Below, piece by piece: positions 15,769 through 58,874 of a stretch of DNA of 64,000 nucleotides. The DNA comes from Halostagnicola kamekurae (GTDB lineage Archaea; Halobacteriota; Halobacteria; Halobacteriales; Natrialbaceae): contig NZ_FOZS01000001.1 of the NCBI RefSeq assembly GCF_900116205.1, forward strand, positions 186,001-250,000. Reading direction: 5' to 3'. The position numbers were made by a program, and so were the translations under genes. Every line of letters begins with the position of its first letter. Within the stretch, counting starts at the first letter, position 1. The notes under the pieces are model-generated. The model searched no databases and was not told where the DNA came from. It was given only the letters and a program-made list of their open reading frames with translations.

Positions 15769-16551
15769 TCAGTCGTCGCCCTCGAACCGAGCGCGTCTGG
15801 ATTCGTTCAACGCATCACAGATGCCGCCCTGCCCGGACATGTTGACCTGCGCGAGTCGGCCGCGTCGGTGGACGAGTTCGAACTCGTCGGAATCGATCGG
15901 CTCCCCTTCGGGTGTGCGAAAGAGAACATCGTCCGGGTTAGCCCCGATCCCCGCCTCCTGTGCTTTCTCGAGGTAGCTCTCGATCGGTTCGAGCGGCGCG
16001 GTCGCGGTAAATCCCCGGTCGGAAAGCTCGATCGCGGCGATGCCGGCCGACTCGTCGCGCTCTATGTCACGCCGCCGCAGCGAAACGATTCGGGCCGGCT
16101 CGAGGCCGACTCCCAGCAGCGCTTCGATCGCGTCGTACTGGCGGCCGACTCGAGCCTTCTCGTCGAGTTGGGCGCGAACGTCCTCGATTTCGCCGTCGGC
16201 GTCGGGGAACGCGGCCTCGAAAGAGCGGCGCTCGTTGACGCCCCGATTGATCTCGGTCTCGTGGAGGTGTTCCTGCAGGACGATTTCCGCAGTCTCGACG
16301 CTCGAGAGCGCTTCGACGGCGTCGCGGGCGTCGGTCGCCATCATCCAGGCGAACGCCGGCGAACACCACGCCGTTGGAAGGGTGAATCGGACCGTCACCC
16401 GCGACCCGTCGATCTCGATCTCGTCGACGTACTCGAGGTCGACGATCGAGCGGTCGAGCTCGGGGTCGGTCACCCGCCGGAGACGATCGCGCACGGTGGC
16501 CCGATCCGGGCCGTTCGAGGCGTCGTGCGGCGTGCTCGAGTTCGACGCCAT
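15769..16551 (-). CDS. DUF59/MIP18 iron-sulfur assembly domain protein with long C-terminal region
   Basis: Residues about 15-95 of this 260-residue protein form a DUF59 (MIP18/SufT-like) domain: VRDRLRRVTDPELDRSIVDLEYV, then VRFTLPTAWCSPAFAWMMATDAR, with one conserved cysteine. The family takes part in Fe-S cluster or metal-centre assembly. The other 165 residues contain an LRRRDIERDES segment with faint resemblance to tyrosine-recombinase helices, and GEPIDSDEFELVHRRGRLAQVNMSGQGGICD; I cannot assign them. The ATG at 16551 overlaps the amidohydrolase stop (ATGA). The pairing with an amidohydrolase of the propane-operon type suggests a dedicated maturation role; that is inference. Confidence 0.8.
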   Translation of the reverse strand: MASNSSTPHDASNGPDRATVRDRLRRVTDPELDRSIVDLEYVDEIEIDGSRVTVRFTLPTAWCSPAFAWMMATDARDAVEALSSVETAEIVLQEHLHETEINRGVNERRSFEAAFPDADGEIEDVRAQLDEKARVGRQYDAIEALLGVGLEPARIVSLRRRDIERDESAGIAAIELSDRGFTATAPLEPIESYLEKAQEAGIGANPDDVLFRTPEGEPIDSDEFELVHRRGRLAQVNMSGQGGICDALNESRRARFEGDD

Positions 16552-17612
16552 CAGTCTGCCGCTGCCGGTTCGCCGCCCGCGTAGTGGTCTGCCAGTTCGA
16601 ACGTCTCGGTGATCTCGTCGTCCCGGAAAGCTCGTTTTTTCTCCTCGATGTCGATGTCGTAGAGTTCGGCCGCGTTCTCGCCCATCACCTTCCGTTTGGT
16701 CTCGAGGTCCCACTCGACGCCGTACTCGGCGCGGTGTTCCGGCGTCAGTTCGGCTTCGATCACTTCCTCGACGAGCCAGTCGGGGTTCCAGATAGCGTAA
16801 TCCGAACCGAAGAGGACCCGGTCCTCACCGAGCCACCAGAGCAGTTCTGACATGATCTCGGAGAACTTGCCGGGTCGATTCTGGGCGAACGGGGCGGCGA
16901 CCGCGAGCCCGCCGTAGACGTTCGGCTCCTGACCCGCAATCCAGCAGAAATCGTCGAGACGCGGGAGACCGACGTGCTCGACGACGAAGTTGAGGTCGGG
17001 GAACGACGACGCGGCGTCGTCAACGTCCTTGACGTCGAACGCGTCGCGATTGAGCGGACGGATCGTCGGCCCCTTGTGGGGGTGGACGTTCTCGATACCG
17101 AGTTCCGCGCACTTCTCGAGGAAGCGAAACGCCTCTTCGCTGTCGAGTCGCCAGCCTTTCGAGTCGCCGCGCCACTCCGCGGTGTAGAGTTTGACTCCCT
17201 GCAGGTCGTAGGTCTCGTCGAGTTCCTCGAGGTACTCGAGGCCCTCGTCGCCGTCGCGCGGGTCGAAGGTGCCGTTGAGGACGAACCGCTCCGGGTACGC
17301 CGTCGCGAGTTCGGCGTTCTGTTCGGTCGTGTTAAAGCCCTCGTCGTAGAAGTCGGTCAGGTACGTCGGCTGGAAGATGGCCATGTCCGCAGCCGCGTTT
17401 CCGAACAGGTCCTCGAGCATCCGTTCGCTCCCGTACTGTCGATACTCATCGATATCCCACTGCAGTTCCTCCGGCGTGAACGACGTGTGGTAGTCGTAGA
17501 AACACTGGATGAACTGTTCGCCGCCCTCGTGGATGATGTTCTGCTCGCTCGCGTCCCACAGATGGACGTGCGAGTCGATGACGAAGATGTTCTCGCCGTC
17601 GTGGTGATACAT
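16551..17612 (-). CDS. Amidohydrolase of the type found in propane monooxygenase operons
   Basis: This 353-residue TIM-barrel protein of the amidohydrolase_2 class starts with MYHHDGENIFVIDSHVHLWD (metal-binding HxH), continues with AIFQPTYLTDFYDEGFNTTEQNAELA, GVKLYTAEWRGDSKGW, NVHPHKGPTIRPLNRDAFDVKD, EHVGLPRLDDFCW, and LFGSDYAIWNPDW (metal-binding Asp). I recognise this motif set from the amidohydrolase that accompanies soluble propane/butane monooxygenases in actinobacteria and proteobacteria. Its exact reaction is not known to me. The gene leads a two-gene operon with the DUF59 protein and diverges from the alcohol dehydrogenase. The A/T-rich stretch at 17620-17637 is the likely promoter. 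Confidence 0.88.
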   Translation of the reverse strand: MYHHDGENIFVIDSHVHLWDASEQNIIHEGGEQFIQCFYDYHTSFTPEELQWDIDEYRQYGSERMLEDLFGNAAADMAIFQPTYLTDFYDEGFNTTEQNAELATAYPERFVLNGTFDPRDGDEGLEYLEELDETYDLQGVKLYTAEWRGDSKGWRLDSEEAFRFLEKCAELGIENVHPHKGPTIRPLNRDAFDVKDVDDAASSFPDLNFVVEHVGLPRLDDFCWIAGQEPNVYGGLAVAAPFAQNRPGKFSEIMSELLWWLGEDRVLFGSDYAIWNPDWLVEEVIEAELTPEHRAEYGVEWDLETKRKVMGENAAELYDIDIEEKKRAFRDDEITETFELADHYAGGEPAAAD

Positions 17613-17763
17613 TGTACATTGTTATTTATTATCATTACCCATCACTCTTTTTCAGCGCTGGGAGAAAATATCGCTATATGAACGTTCACAGGATTTAGAA
17701 CGTCGTTGCACCGCGAACGAACGAAGGGTTTTGGCGGAGTACGGTGAACTGTCACAGAGTACC
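17613..17763. promoter_or_regulatory. Divergent promoter region of the amidohydrolase and alcohol dehydrogenase genes
   Basis: This 151-base gap is AT-rich on its left side. On the minus strand AATAAATAAC and a direct repeat ACAATGT-ACAATGT end at the amidohydrolase ATG. On the plus strand CTATATGA (17673-17680) and ATTTAGAA (17693-17700) are candidate boxes for the dehydrogenase, which would then have an untranslated leader of about 40-60 bases. Shared control of the two sides is plausible but not shown. Confidence 0.45.
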
Positions 17764-18807
17764 ATGCAAGCAGCACGCCTCCACGAGTACACCGAGGAAA
17801 TGAGCGACGCGCTTACCGTCGAGGATATCGATCGACCCGAACTCGAGCGCTCCGATCACGTGCTCGTCGAAGTCGCCGGTGCGGGCTGGTGTCAGACTGA
17901 CAATCACGTCATCGAAGGGATGTGGACGGAGTACGTTCCACAGGAACTCCCGATGACGCTCGGCCACGAGAACGCGGGCGTCGTCGCCGAAGTCGGCGAC
18001 GAGGTGACGCTGGTCGAGGAGGGCGACCCGGTTATCTGTCACCCCGTTCAGACGTGTGGTATCTGTCGGCCCTGCCGCCTCGGCGAGGACATGTACTGCG
18101 AAAACAGCACATTCAATGGGCTCACGACCGACGGCGGGTTCGCCGAGTACCTCCAGACCAACGAACGCGCGGTCATCCCGCTGCCGGACGGGGTCGATCC
18201 GACCGAAATCGCGCCCCACGCCGACGCCGGAATCACGGCCTATCACGCCGCGAAGAAGGCGGTCCGCGAACTGAACCCCGGCGACACCGCCGTCGTCGTC
18301 GGTATCGGCGGCCTCGGTCACATCGGACTGCAATGTCTCGAGGCGATGAGCGCCGCTGACGTCGTCGCCGTCGATATCAAAGACGAGGCACTCGAGCTGG
18401 CCGAACGCCTCGGCGCGACCCACACCGTCAACTCGAGCGAGGAGGATCTCGGGCAAGTCGTCGACGACCTCACCGACGGCGACGGCGTCCAGCAGATCCT
18501 CGATTTCGTCGGCTCGGACGAGACGGCGGGCTACGGGACCGAAATTGCTGCCGCGGGGGCCGACCAGCACGTCATCGGCTACGGCGGCCACATTCACGAA
18601 CCGTGCCAGGCGCTGGTCGACGGCGAACTCTCGCTCAAGGGAACGCTGGTCGGGCGCTACGCCGAACTCCAGGAACTCGTCGCGCTTGTCGACCGTGACC
18701 TCGTCGAACTCCACACCAGCCGATACGACCTCGGCGAGATCAACGACGTCGCCGAAGCGCTCGAGCACGGCGAGATCGAGGGGCGGGCGGTGATCCTGCC
18801 GCCCTGA
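17764..18807 (+). CDS. Zinc-dependent alcohol dehydrogenase (MDR family)
   Basis: The 347-residue protein is a medium-chain NAD(P)-dependent alcohol dehydrogenase. Catalytic zinc ligands appear in GAGWCQTDNHV (Cys) and GHENAGVV (His, Glu). The structural-zinc cysteines lie in CGICRPCRLGEDMYC (four cysteines). The nucleotide fold shows VVGIGGLGHIGLQCL and a following acidic VAVDIKDEA, which suggests NAD preference. I start at the ATG at 17764 (MQAARLHEY), as in the family; a TTG 33 bases upstream is in frame. Secondary-alcohol dehydrogenases of this type sit beside the amidohydrolase in bacterial propane operons, where they oxidise propanol. Confidence 0.9.
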   Translation: MQAARLHEYTEEMSDALTVEDIDRPELERSDHVLVEVAGAGWCQTDNHVIEGMWTEYVPQELPMTLGHENAGVVAEVGDEVTLVEEGDPVICHPVQTCGICRPCRLGEDMYCENSTFNGLTTDGGFAEYLQTNERAVIPLPDGVDPTEIAPHADAGITAYHAAKKAVRELNPGDTAVVVGIGGLGHIGLQCLEAMSAADVVAVDIKDEALELAERLGATHTVNSSEEDLGQVVDDLTDGDGVQQILDFVGSDETAGYGTEIAAAGADQHVIGYGGHIHEPCQALVDGELSLKGTLVGRYAELQELVALVDRDLVELHTSRYDLGEINDVAEALEHGEIEGRAVILPP

Positions 18808-18958: not shown

Positions 18959-20371
18959 ATGGCAACGCTCGAGGATCCGATCGACATCGGCGGCGTGACG
19001 GTCCCTAACCGCCTCTACCGCGCCCCGCTACTCGAGTGCGCGGGGAACGGCCCGGACGCCGTCGACGTGCTCATCGACGATCTCGAGCCCGCTGCGGCGT
19101 CGGGGGTCGGGCTCATCTGCCAGGGCGCGACCGTCGTTCGTGGCGAGGGCGGCTGTGCCGCGCCGGGGATGACCCGCGTCCGCGATCCCGAGTTCGTCTC
19201 TCGACTGTCGCGGCTCACGGATCGGATTCGCGACCACGGGAGCCGGATTTTCGTCCAGCTCGAGCACGGGGGCCTCCGGAGCATGGAAACGTGGCACGCC
19301 GAGTACCGCGCGGAGAACCCTGCCCTCGAGCAGCTCGCGGTCTCGCGGCCGCCGTGGCAGCTTCGGGCGCTCGATCGGTTGGGGTTGCTCTCGTTCGATC
19401 CGCACGTACTGAGGACCGACGAAGTGTACGAACTGGCCGCGGACTTCGGGCGGGCTGCCAGTCGTTGCGTCGAGGCGGGCTACGACGGCGTCCACCTCGC
19501 CGGCGCGAACATGGGCATCATCCAGCAGTTCCTCTCGCCCTTTTACAACCGCCGCGAGGACGAGTTCGGCGGCGGTCCCGAGGCCCGCCTCGAGTTTCTC
19601 GCACTCGTCCACGACGAAATCCGCGAGCGAGCGGGCGACATTCCGCTGGTGACGAAAGTACCGGCCGAAATCGCCGCGCCGCCGTGGCCGATCGTCGACC
19701 GACGACTGTCGCTCGAGGACGGGATCGAGATCTGTCGCCGGCTCGAGCGAATCGGCTACGACGCCGTCGTCCCTGTCACAGCGTCGGTCGTCTGGGACAT
19801 GAGCATCGTTCGCGGGGCCTACCCCGACCGAGCGTGGGAGAACGAGGCGATGCGTGCGGGGTACGACGCTGCGTTCGGCGGCCCCGCTCGCCGCCGGCTG
19901 GTGGCCGCGGCGAACTGGGTACAGTCCCTGCAGTACGACTTCGAATCGGGCTGGAACGAGCCGTTCTGTCGACGGGTCCGTGAGGCGGTCTCCATCCCGG
20001 TCCTCGCGGAAGGGGGAATTCGAGAACGGGAGACGATGGATCGACTGCTCGGGGGGTCGAGCGATCGGGGGACAGGTTCGACTCGAGGAGCGACCTCGAG
20101 CGGGCGGGGGGACTCGACCGACCGAGCCGTGACGAGCCAGTCCGAACCGCCAGCCTGCGACATGGTTGGCATGGCCCGGCCGTTCTACGCCGAACCGAAA
20201 CTGGGTGCCCGACTACTCGAGCCCGACTCACCCGCCGCTCGCGTGCTGTGTGAAAGCTGTAACAACTGTACCGTGCCGCAGGTGACCGGCGCGCCCGGCA
20301 TCTGCCGAACGCCGTCTGTGCTCCGCGATCGGGGGGAACTCGAGCGGGCAGGTGCCTACGAACAGGACTGA
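18959..20371 (+). CDS. NADH:flavin oxidoreductase, old yellow enzyme family
   Basis: The 470-residue TIM-barrel flavoprotein starts with the family motif IDIGGVTVPNRLYRAPL. It has GVGLICQGATVV, the substrate-side FVQLEHGG, GYDGVHLAGANMGIIQQFLSPFYNRREDEFGG, VTKVPAE, and VGMARPFYAEP. Near the C-terminus CESCNNC...C gives the four cysteines of a 4Fe-4S cluster, as in 2,4-dienoyl-CoA reductase-type members, but the FAD/NADPH domains of those larger enzymes are absent. A Ser/Gly/Arg/Thr-rich insertion of about 35 residues (near 360-400) interrupts the barrel just before VGMARPF. It lies downstream of the alcohol dehydrogenase on the same strand, with a 151-base gap. Confidence 0.87.
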   Translation: MATLEDPIDIGGVTVPNRLYRAPLLECAGNGPDAVDVLIDDLEPAAASGVGLICQGATVVRGEGGCAAPGMTRVRDPEFVSRLSRLTDRIRDHGSRIFVQLEHGGLRSMETWHAEYRAENPALEQLAVSRPPWQLRALDRLGLLSFDPHVLRTDEVYELAADFGRAASRCVEAGYDGVHLAGANMGIIQQFLSPFYNRREDEFGGGPEARLEFLALVHDEIRERAGDIPLVTKVPAEIAAPPWPIVDRRLSLEDGIEICRRLERIGYDAVVPVTASVVWDMSIVRGAYPDRAWENEAMRAGYDAAFGGPARRRLVAAANWVQSLQYDFESGWNEPFCRRVREAVSIPVLAEGGIRERETMDRLLGGSSDRGTGSTRGATSSGRGDSTDRAVTSQSEPPACDMVGMARPFYAEPKLGARLLEPDSPAARVLCESCNNCTVPQVTGAPGICRTPSVLRDRGELERAGAYEQD

Positions 20372-58484: not shown

Positions 58485-58874
58485 ATGCCCACGGTAGAAT
58501 ACCTCAACTACGAAGTGTTAGACGACCAGGGATGGGAGATGGACGACGACGACCTCTTCGAGAACGCGGCCGACGCCGGTCTCGACGAGGAGGACTACGG
58601 CACCCTCGATGTCGCCGAAGGCGAGTACATCCTCGAGGCCGCCGAAGCTCAGGGCTACGACTGGCCGTTTTCCTGCCGAGCAGGTGCCTGCGCGAACTGT
58701 GCAGCCATCATCACCGAAGGCGAGATCGATATGGACATGCAACAGATCCTCTCCGACGAGGAAGTCGAAGAGAAGAACGTCCGTCTGACCTGTATCGGTT
58801 CCGCCGAGACCGACGAGGTCAAAATCGTCTACAACGCCAAACACCTCGACTACCTGCAGAACCGCGTCATTTAA
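58485..58874 (+). CDS. fdx: Halophile 2Fe-2S ferredoxin
   Basis: The 129-residue protein is the plant-type ferredoxin of haloarchaea with its extra N-terminal acidic domain. It begins [43 protein letters not shown], and the cluster cysteines are in [14 protein letters not shown] and LTCIGS. It carries electrons from the pyruvate and 2-oxoglutarate oxidoreductases and is abundant. I use the ATG at 58485, the known mature start. The same frame is open back to an ATG at 58365 (extension [17 protein letters not shown]...), which I take as leader. Confidence 0.95.

Follow-up and report, generated by a model that had tools for sequence, protein, structure and literature searches.

A conserved amidohydrolase–DUF59–alcohol dehydrogenase gene trio in haloarchaea without a diiron hydroxylase gene

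Organization of the locus

The window, meaning the whole 64-kb stretch of DNA that was analysed, contains an amidohydrolase gene (AMH) and a DUF59 gene on the minus strand and a zinc alcohol dehydrogenase (ADH) gene that diverges from them (Table 1). All three open reading frames were located as the first-pass annotation of the sequence had placed them, and their coordinates and strands confirmed its description of an AMH/DUF59 overlap and a divergent ADH. The overlap consists of one base, common to the ATG of the DUF59 gene (position 16551) and the stop codon of AMH, in the sequence TGATG. The TTG at 17731, given as the ADH start in the list of open reading frames, is probably not the true start, because the ATG at 17764 (MQAARLHEY) is kept in nearly all of the haloarchaeal loci examined. 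Approximately 35–50 bp 5′ of this ATG, many haloarchaeal loci carry a GAACGTTT-like element, recognized by eye, that is a putative BRE/TATA. The TGAACGTTCA palindrome in the divergent intergenic region of the window was considered as a conserved operator and rejected, because none of the relatives examined carries it.

Table 1. Features of the trio locus, in window coordinates
Feature	Coordinates	Strand	Basis
DUF59 / FeS_assembly_P protein, 260 aa	15769..16551	-	Pfam PF01883; N-terminal DUF59 (MIP18) at about residues 17–92 followed by a conserved C-terminal domain (~160 aa)
AMH, 353 aa; TIM-barrel Amidohydro_2 protein of the type encoded in propane-monooxygenase operons	16551..17612	-	Pfam PF04909; identity; tree; structure match
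Divergent intergenic region; putative promoters, one for AMH–DUF59 and one for ADH	17613..17763	.	Direct reading
Medium-chain, zinc-dependent alcohol dehydrogenase, 347 aa when read from the conserved ATG	17764..18807	+	Pfam ADH_N and ADH_zinc_N; ADH tree; conserved start
Oxidored_FMN (old-yellow-enzyme type) protein, 3′ of ADH	18959..20371	+	Pfam PF00724

The Oxidored_FMN gene is found next to the trio at 15 loci, all of them from Natrialbaceae, and is probably a lineage-specific neighbour outside the module. No constant fourth gene was found beside the haloarchaeal trio, the neighbours of which vary by lineage.

Searches of the window with components of soluble diiron monooxygenases (SDIMOs) by tblastn returned no alpha, beta, MmoB or GroEL homologue. 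The sole reductase-like match spanned 72 aa at 36% (positions 58605–58814) and, this fragment aside, the window lacks a diiron hydroxylase, reductase and GroEL-like chaperonin, as had been proposed from the sequence. A search of the whole genome for a MimA/PrmA-type hydroxylase found no PF02332 protein, and the positive control for this search recovered both hydroxylase subunits in two bacterial genomes.

The encoded proteins

AMH matches PF04909 (Amidohydro_2) with 158 bits against a gathering cut-off of 26.4, and its translation contains both of the motifs by which the first-pass annotation had recognized it as a propane-operon amidohydrolase. This assignment is well founded: the protein is 54–60% identical to copies beside SDIMO genes in Caballeronia (60% for the SDIMO-operon copy), Paracoccus and R. 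aetherivorans, and lies in the same clade of the AMH tree as the SDIMO-operon amidohydrolases. The window protein carries the metal-ligand set H15, H17, K141, H179, H213 and D271, all of which are invariant across 62 aligned AMH rows except H17, replaced by A or G in five rows. The AMH structure resembles 3irs and decarboxylase-type Amidohydro_2 proteins, and a sequence search of the PDB yielded one weak relative only, again 3irs.

The DUF59 protein scores 60.2 bits against PF01883 (cut-off 23.5) and falls far under the NCBIfam PaaD/SUF equivalog cut-offs (37 versus 180, 24 versus 203 and 21 versus 108 bits). Its DPE motif, T60, C63, C245 and R252 are invariant among 29 homologues. In an AlphaFold2 model with a mean pLDDT of 91, the N-terminal half matches DUF59/CIAO2B structures. 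The C-terminal half of the window protein has no Pfam match, even at E ≤ 1. A Foldseek comparison paired this C-terminal domain with XerD at a probability of 0.99 but with E = 0.03; the Pfam integrase profile did not match it, and hhalign against a two-sequence integrase profile gave P = 0.38, so that profile comparison does not support an integrase origin.

Both Pfam domains, ADH_N and ADH_zinc_N, were assigned to the ADH. The best solved relative is the Aeropyrum pernix-type ADH 1h2b (343 bits), R. ruber ADH-A is also among the closest solved structures, and the trio ADHs of bacteria are 44–47% identical to the window protein.

Distribution of the trio and of diiron monooxygenases

AMH was found in 123 of 391 haloarchaeal genomes (32%), where its sequences form a single clade of the AMH tree (support 100/85) with identities of approximately 68–97%. 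Two of five genomes of the window's own genus lack the AMH trio. The synteny of the trio is retained in nearly all of the full-length haloarchaeal loci fetched, from many genera and across halobacterial families. Chance can be excluded as the cause of the arrangement because these identities and the shared synteny extend across many halobacterial genera. The comparison of neighbourhoods across Halobacteria, an unconserved neighbourhood being the outcome named as contrary in the first-pass annotation, thus leaves its finding standing. The annotation's suggestion of an orphan module is supported.

The SDIMO hydroxylase family (PF02332) was detected in four of the 391 haloarchaeal genomes, all without AMH, and in none of the 123 that carry AMH. 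With just four SDIMO-bearing haloarchaea, this zero overlap alone does not reach significance (hypergeometric P = 0.22), and a statistical exclusion between the two was rejected. Because no AMH-carrying haloarchaeal genome has PF02332, the further proposal that the trio serves a monooxygenase encoded elsewhere is not supported as far as SDIMOs are concerned.

AMH is accompanied by the DUF59 gene. The latter is present at 151 of 152 AMH locus records and at all five loci of an AMH paralogue of 30% identity, a pair that Pfam confirms in the window's own genome. It is found at none of ten remoter Amidohydro_2 genes and at none of 13 SDIMO loci without AMH. The DUF59 gene tracks AMH, not the monooxygenase. 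A literature search on DUF59 and amidohydrolase found nothing relevant.

Among Actinomycetota, AMH occurs in 39 of 376 genomes, 24 of which have no PF02332 protein over the cut-off, although many of these genomes look like drafts for which completeness figures are absent, so that some calls of no SDIMO may reflect missed genes. Standalone trios were found in this phylum, and Thermomicrobium has a DUF59–AMH–ADH set without an SDIMO nearby. A propane-type SDIMO alpha subunit (≥55% identity) was present in at least 10 of the 39 AMH-positive actinobacterial genomes versus 1 of 160 AMH-negative ones, the latter comprising two sets of 80 genomes (Fisher p ~3 × 10⁻⁷). SDIMO operons without AMH or DUF59 also exist (L212, L213 and others). 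On the AMH tree the SDIMO-linked label requires at least seven changes; linkage to the monooxygenase has been gained or lost repeatedly. In Mycobacterium sp. AT1, the monooxygenase and the three trio genes are separately located (PMC6849523). The first-pass description of the genes as accessory to a propane monooxygenase seems to have the relationship the wrong way round, because trios lacking the monooxygenase are common and the propane/acetone-type monooxygenase is rare without the trio.

A proposed catabolic module and its relation to known systems

These patterns suggest that the trio is a small pathway in its own right, to which propane enzymes became attached in several independent events. 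From the sequence comparisons, we consider the trio to be probably a catabolic module that needs no SDIMO: AMH and DUF59 would make up a single metal-dependent unit, working together with the ADH on some small oxygenated compound. AMH would be a metal-dependent TIM-barrel enzyme and the DUF59 protein its dedicated partner, which might deliver or hold a metal or Fe–S cluster or serve as a second subunit, rather than a maturation factor of the monooxygenase. That the two proteins act as one unit is inferred. The same small compound, an alcohol, ketone or aldehyde, would be oxidized or reduced by the ADH in an NAD(P)-linked step. An SDIMO of the propane/acetone type would have joined the module repeatedly in bacteria and supplied it with 2-propanol, acetone or acetol; haloarchaea would obtain the substrate from another source. 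In actinobacteria grown on acetone or 2-HIBA, AMH makes up 3.2% and Adh1 6.1% of protein (PMC7176365), as expected for pathway enzymes.

Glyoxalase I or glyoxalase-like genes stand in tandem with bacterial trio loci (L082–L084, L095) or within a few kilobases of them (L179, L182, L197), and a GlcD-type oxidase gene is present in L081–L084 and a DJ-1/PfpI gene in L090. The glyoxalase I genes beside several bacterial copies may point to a hydroxyketone or 2-oxoaldehyde as an intermediate, and chemistry at the level of acetol or methylglyoxal might be tentatively read from them; the link comes from a few bacterial loci, with a background rate absent, and does not extend to the haloarchaeal copies, near which the search gave one strong glyoxalase match about 8 kb away (L057) and one fragment where L053 ends.

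The same bacterial neighbours (glyoxalase I, DJ-1/PfpI and GlcD-type genes) would also fit AMH and DUF59 as a unit with a housekeeping or protective role, such as the detoxification of a reactive carbonyl, but a patchy spread even within the window's genus, the occurrence of copies on plasmid records and the high abundance of AMH in an actinobacterium on acetone make this unlikely. Equally doubtful is that another oxygenase family elsewhere in haloarchaeal genomes (AlkB, P450, copper membrane or flavin monooxygenase) feeds the module: hydrocarbon degradation in hypersaline settings is reported or reviewed in the literature, but the trio's conserved neighbours include no such gene. Least probable by some way is that the three genuinely function as accessories of a diiron monooxygenase of the propane/acetone type, the haloarchaeal copies being either relics or helpers of a monooxygenase encoded elsewhere in the genome; many bacteria do have them inside SDIMO operons with GroEL, and the actinobacterial enrichment agrees, but the PF02332 count largely refutes this reading for haloarchaeal SDIMOs, some SDIMO operons do without AMH or DUF59, and AMH is not decaying in haloarchaea, as its identities and invariant metal ligands attest.

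The SDIMO-independent module is thus the reading we prefer. A bolder version, which we hold to be possible but the less likely outcome, is that AMH and DUF59 constitute an unrecognized two-protein metalloenzyme family that predates the monooxygenase link and forms, with the ADH, an oxygenase-free pathway for small ketones, alcohols or oxoaldehydes in archaea and bacteria. Two uncharacterized genes of well-studied propane/acetone monooxygenase operons are usually taken as monooxygenase accessories, and existing descriptions of these operons list the DUF59 gene as an iron–sulfur assembly factor with its target unspecified; the distribution of the two points to a separate pathway unit in which the DUF59 protein belongs to the amidohydrolase. 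Candidate substrates for the pair as an enzyme would be 2-propanol, acetone, acetol and methylglyoxal, and haloarchaea could serve as hosts for study of the pair free of interference from a diiron monooxygenase. An unassigned capacity for small-molecule catabolism would be implied for about a third of the sampled haloarchaeal genomes.

Among solved Amidohydro_2 enzymes (the γ-resorcylate, 5-carboxyvanillate and ACMSD decarboxylases and the LigJ hydratase), AMH shares the TIM barrel and largely retains the metal-ligand pattern HxH...H...H...D, but is only ~11–18% identical to them; we know of no DUF59 partner for any of the four. With PaaD, SufT and CIAO2B (MIP18, DUF59), the DUF59 protein shares the N-terminal domain, DPE motif and conserved cysteine; it differs by an additional C-terminal domain of ~160 aa with an invariant Cys and Arg, and by the genetic linkage of its gene to AMH. 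The propane/acetone-type SDIMO operons (prmABCD–amidohydrolase–DUF59–adh1–groEL; mimABCD–mimG), the gene set of which has been described (PMC4428276, PMC6849523, PMC9213486), encode a homologous AMH, a DUF59 protein with the same C-terminal domain and a related ADH, and their AMH and DUF59 genes are likewise adjacent and overlapping or nearly so; the window, however, has no hydroxylase, coupling protein or GroEL gene, its genome has no hydroxylase, and its ADH gene diverges from the other two instead of sharing their operon. Closest in composition are the standalone trios of Thermomicrobium roseum and Actinomycetota, in which the same three genes are adjacent with no SDIMO nearby, but all three are co-directional there, whereas the ADH is divergent in most haloarchaea, and an IclR regulator often adjoins the bacterial trio.

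The three genes and their products

The amidohydrolase (AMH), DUF59 and zinc alcohol dehydrogenase (ADH) genes are located exactly where the first-pass annotation had placed them and carry matching Pfam domains. The source genome (window, C1:186001-250000) comprises 4.1 Mb, and the closest named relative of the locus is in Halostagnicola sp. A56, with an AMH identity of 97%. The AMH stop codon and the DUF59 start codon share one base (TGATG), an overlap that makes translational coupling of the two genes probable. The ADH gene very likely starts at the ATG at 17764, which is kept in nearly all haloarchaeal loci examined; counted from there, 151 bp separate the divergent AMH and ADH genes.

Features of the trio and its surroundings, in window positions
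Feature	Positions	Strand	Remarks
DUF59 gene	15769-16551	-	Pfam FeS_assembly_P
C-terminal domain of DUF59 protein	15769-16275		~160 aa; invariant C245 and R252
AMH gene	16551-17612	-	Pfam Amidohydro_2
ADH gene	17731-18807 (as listed)	+	Pfam zinc ADH domains
Old-yellow-enzyme-type gene	18959-20371		downstream of ADH; C-terminal CxxCxxC-type cysteine cluster; kept beside the trio in Natrialbaceae only
Reductase-like match	58605-58814		72 aa, 36% match to SDIMO reductase

The AMH model is a TIM barrel (pLDDT 86) that comes closest, among solved structures, to 3irs and to decarboxylases and hydratases of the Amidohydro_2 family (identity ~11-18%). Residues H15, K141, H179, H213 and D271 are invariant across 62 rows, and H17 is replaced by Ala or Gly in five of them. 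The DUF59 protein (pLDDT 91) has a DUF59/CIAO2B-like N-terminal domain; its C-terminal domain matched no Pfam family, and weak Foldseek matches to XerD/XerA (tyrosine-recombinase catalytic domains) gained no backing from Pfam or profile comparison. The nearest relative of the ADH is the archaeal enzyme 1h2b, and the next is the secondary-alcohol ADH-A of R. ruber.

The trio and soluble diiron monooxygenases

The trio had been proposed to be an orphan module or to serve a monooxygenase encoded elsewhere. Within the 64-kb window, no hydroxylase subunit, coupling protein or GroEL homologue of a soluble diiron monooxygenase (SDIMO) was found. The accompanying statement that no reductase is present needs one qualification: a reductase-like match, possibly a 2Fe-2S ferredoxin, is the sole SDIMO-related match in the window and lies far from the trio. 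A profile search for the SDIMO hydroxylase (PF02332), which detected both bacterial operons used as positive controls, returned no protein from the whole genome. Across 391 genomes of haloarchaea, 123 encode AMH (E ≤ 1e-60), spread over 44 of the 86 genera, and four encode PF02332; no genome contains both, so in haloarchaea the module does not work for an SDIMO (0/123). The numbers are too small for mutual exclusion to be significant (P = 0.22).

The haloarchaeal SDIMO hydroxylase pairs above the PF02332 cut-off (L198, G020 C1:2868000-2886000; L199, G129; L214, G238; L215, G363) come from two genera, are just 19-25% identical to the propane type and have no amidohydrolase or DUF59 gene nearby.

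Synteny of the trio is kept across Halobacteria. AMH and DUF59 adjoin on every uncut contig, and the ADH gene adjoins the pair, divergent in almost all cases; in Halogeometricum it is co-directional and downstream, at L033, L066 and L078 it lies slightly farther away, and at L069 none was found beside the pair. Plasmid records of Halomicrococcus and Halorarius contain copies as well. The flanks are lineage-specific, with Old-yellow-enzyme and Hel308 neighbours restricted to Natrialbaceae, in which median identities are ~85% (AMH), ~80% (ADH) and ~65% (DUF59).

In Alphaproteobacteria, a close AMH was found in 5 of 367 genomes, all five with an SDIMO. In Actinomycetota, it was found in 39 of 376, with PF02332 above cut-off in 15 and not in 24, although the bacterial genomes carry no completeness figures and their SDIMO-negative calls are softer than the haloarchaeal ones. 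Actinobacterial AMH-DUF59-ADH stands alone at many loci and beside SDIMO and GroEL genes at others. No SDIMO lies near DUF59-AMH-ADH in Thermomicrobium roseum, AMH-DUF59-DJ-1 in Peribacillus or AMH-DUF59-gloA in Rhizobium N324, and Acidisoma (G405) has one SDIMO-linked and one free AMH. Of the 39 AMH-positive actinobacterial genomes, at least 10 have a propane-type SDIMO alpha subunit (≥55% identity), versus 1 of the 160 AMH-negative ones (Fisher p ~3e-7). The dependency is one-sided: the propane-type monooxygenase is rarely without the trio, whereas the trio is often without the monooxygenase.

In a maximum-likelihood tree of 67 rows, haloarchaeal AMHs form a single clade (100/85) nested in the group that holds all SDIMO-linked copies. 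This placement bears out the assignment to the propane-operon type, as does 54-60% identity to the amidohydrolase that follows the SDIMO genes of Caballeronia, Paracoccus and Rhodococcus aetherivorans, where DUF59, ADH and GroEL accompany it. Neither result that would have spoken against the assignment, a different clade or a lack of synteny, was obtained. The SDIMO-linked label requires seven changes on the tree, seven being forced by well-supported branches. Seen from distant paralogues, the earliest-branching lines (Thermomicrobium, G1081/G816 and Halobacteria) are SDIMO-free, which suggests an SDIMO-free ancestry, with early forks unsupported and a long outgroup branch. Trio ADHs cluster apart from the few other ADHs of the same loci, a partly circular test, as they were chosen by best score.

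Linkage of the DUF59 protein to the amidohydrolase

A profile built on these DUF59 proteins has a match at 151 of the 152 records of AMH loci, some of which overlap and are not independent loci; the exception, L080, is cut at a contig end. The same profile found DUF59 at 5/5 loci of the AMH paralogue (27-33% identity), one of them in the source genome (C1:1226315), and Pfam confirmed both members of the pair. By contrast, it found none at 10 remoter Amidohydro_2 genes or at 13 SDIMO loci lacking AMH, including two propane-type loci with GroEL (L212 and L213). The DUF59 protein therefore travels with the amidohydrolase, which from this linkage is its likely partner.

The paralogue pair of the source genome (C1:1226315-1227325; L200 6894-8365) combines an amidohydrolase of 30% identity with a short DUF59 protein; related pairs in L201 and L202 have acyl-CoA dehydrogenase, acyl-CoA synthetase, CoA-transferase and luciferase-like genes as neighbours. 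The paralogues lack H15 and D271 according to the alignment, which is less reliable at 30% identity.

Possible function and comparison with known gene sets

We favour, with moderate confidence, an SDIMO-independent catabolic module in which AMH and the DUF59 protein would act as one metal-dependent enzyme unit and the ADH would be its redox partner. In an actinobacterium on acetone/2-HIBA, an amidohydrolase-like protein and Adh1 make up 3.2% and 6.1% of the proteome (PMC7176365), as expected of pathway enzymes; the argument is not decisive, because the chaperonin MimG reaches 4.0% (PMC7176365). Glyoxalase I genes adjoin SDIMO-unlinked AMH-DUF59 in Alphaproteobacteria (tandems in L082-L084 and L095; those of L083 and L095, which were tested, exceed the TIGR00068 cut-off), a divergent GlcD-type oxidase gene adjoins AMH in L081-L084, three Actinomycetota have glyoxalase-like genes within a few kilobases of AMH-DUF59, and in Peribacillus the pair adjoins a DJ-1/PfpI gene. 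Together with the route from acetone through acetol to methylglyoxal that PMC7176365 discusses for a Mim-type organism, these neighbours point weakly to acetol/methylglyoxal-level chemistry; any specific C3 chemistry is a doubtful assignment.

Propane-type gene sets have been described as including a metal-dependent hydrolase, a metal-sulfur cluster biosynthetic enzyme, an ADH and GroEL (PMC4428276), or an amidohydrolase and an iron-sulfur cluster assembly protein (PMC9213486); in Mycobacterium sp. AT1, amidohydrolase, unknown-protein and ADH genes are sited apart from the monooxygenase (PMC6849523). The trio is a real, well-conserved module and a variant of this known gene set, not a new kind of system; the analysis adds two points, that the genes labelled accessory do not depend on the monooxygenase and that DUF59 is linked with the amidohydrolase.
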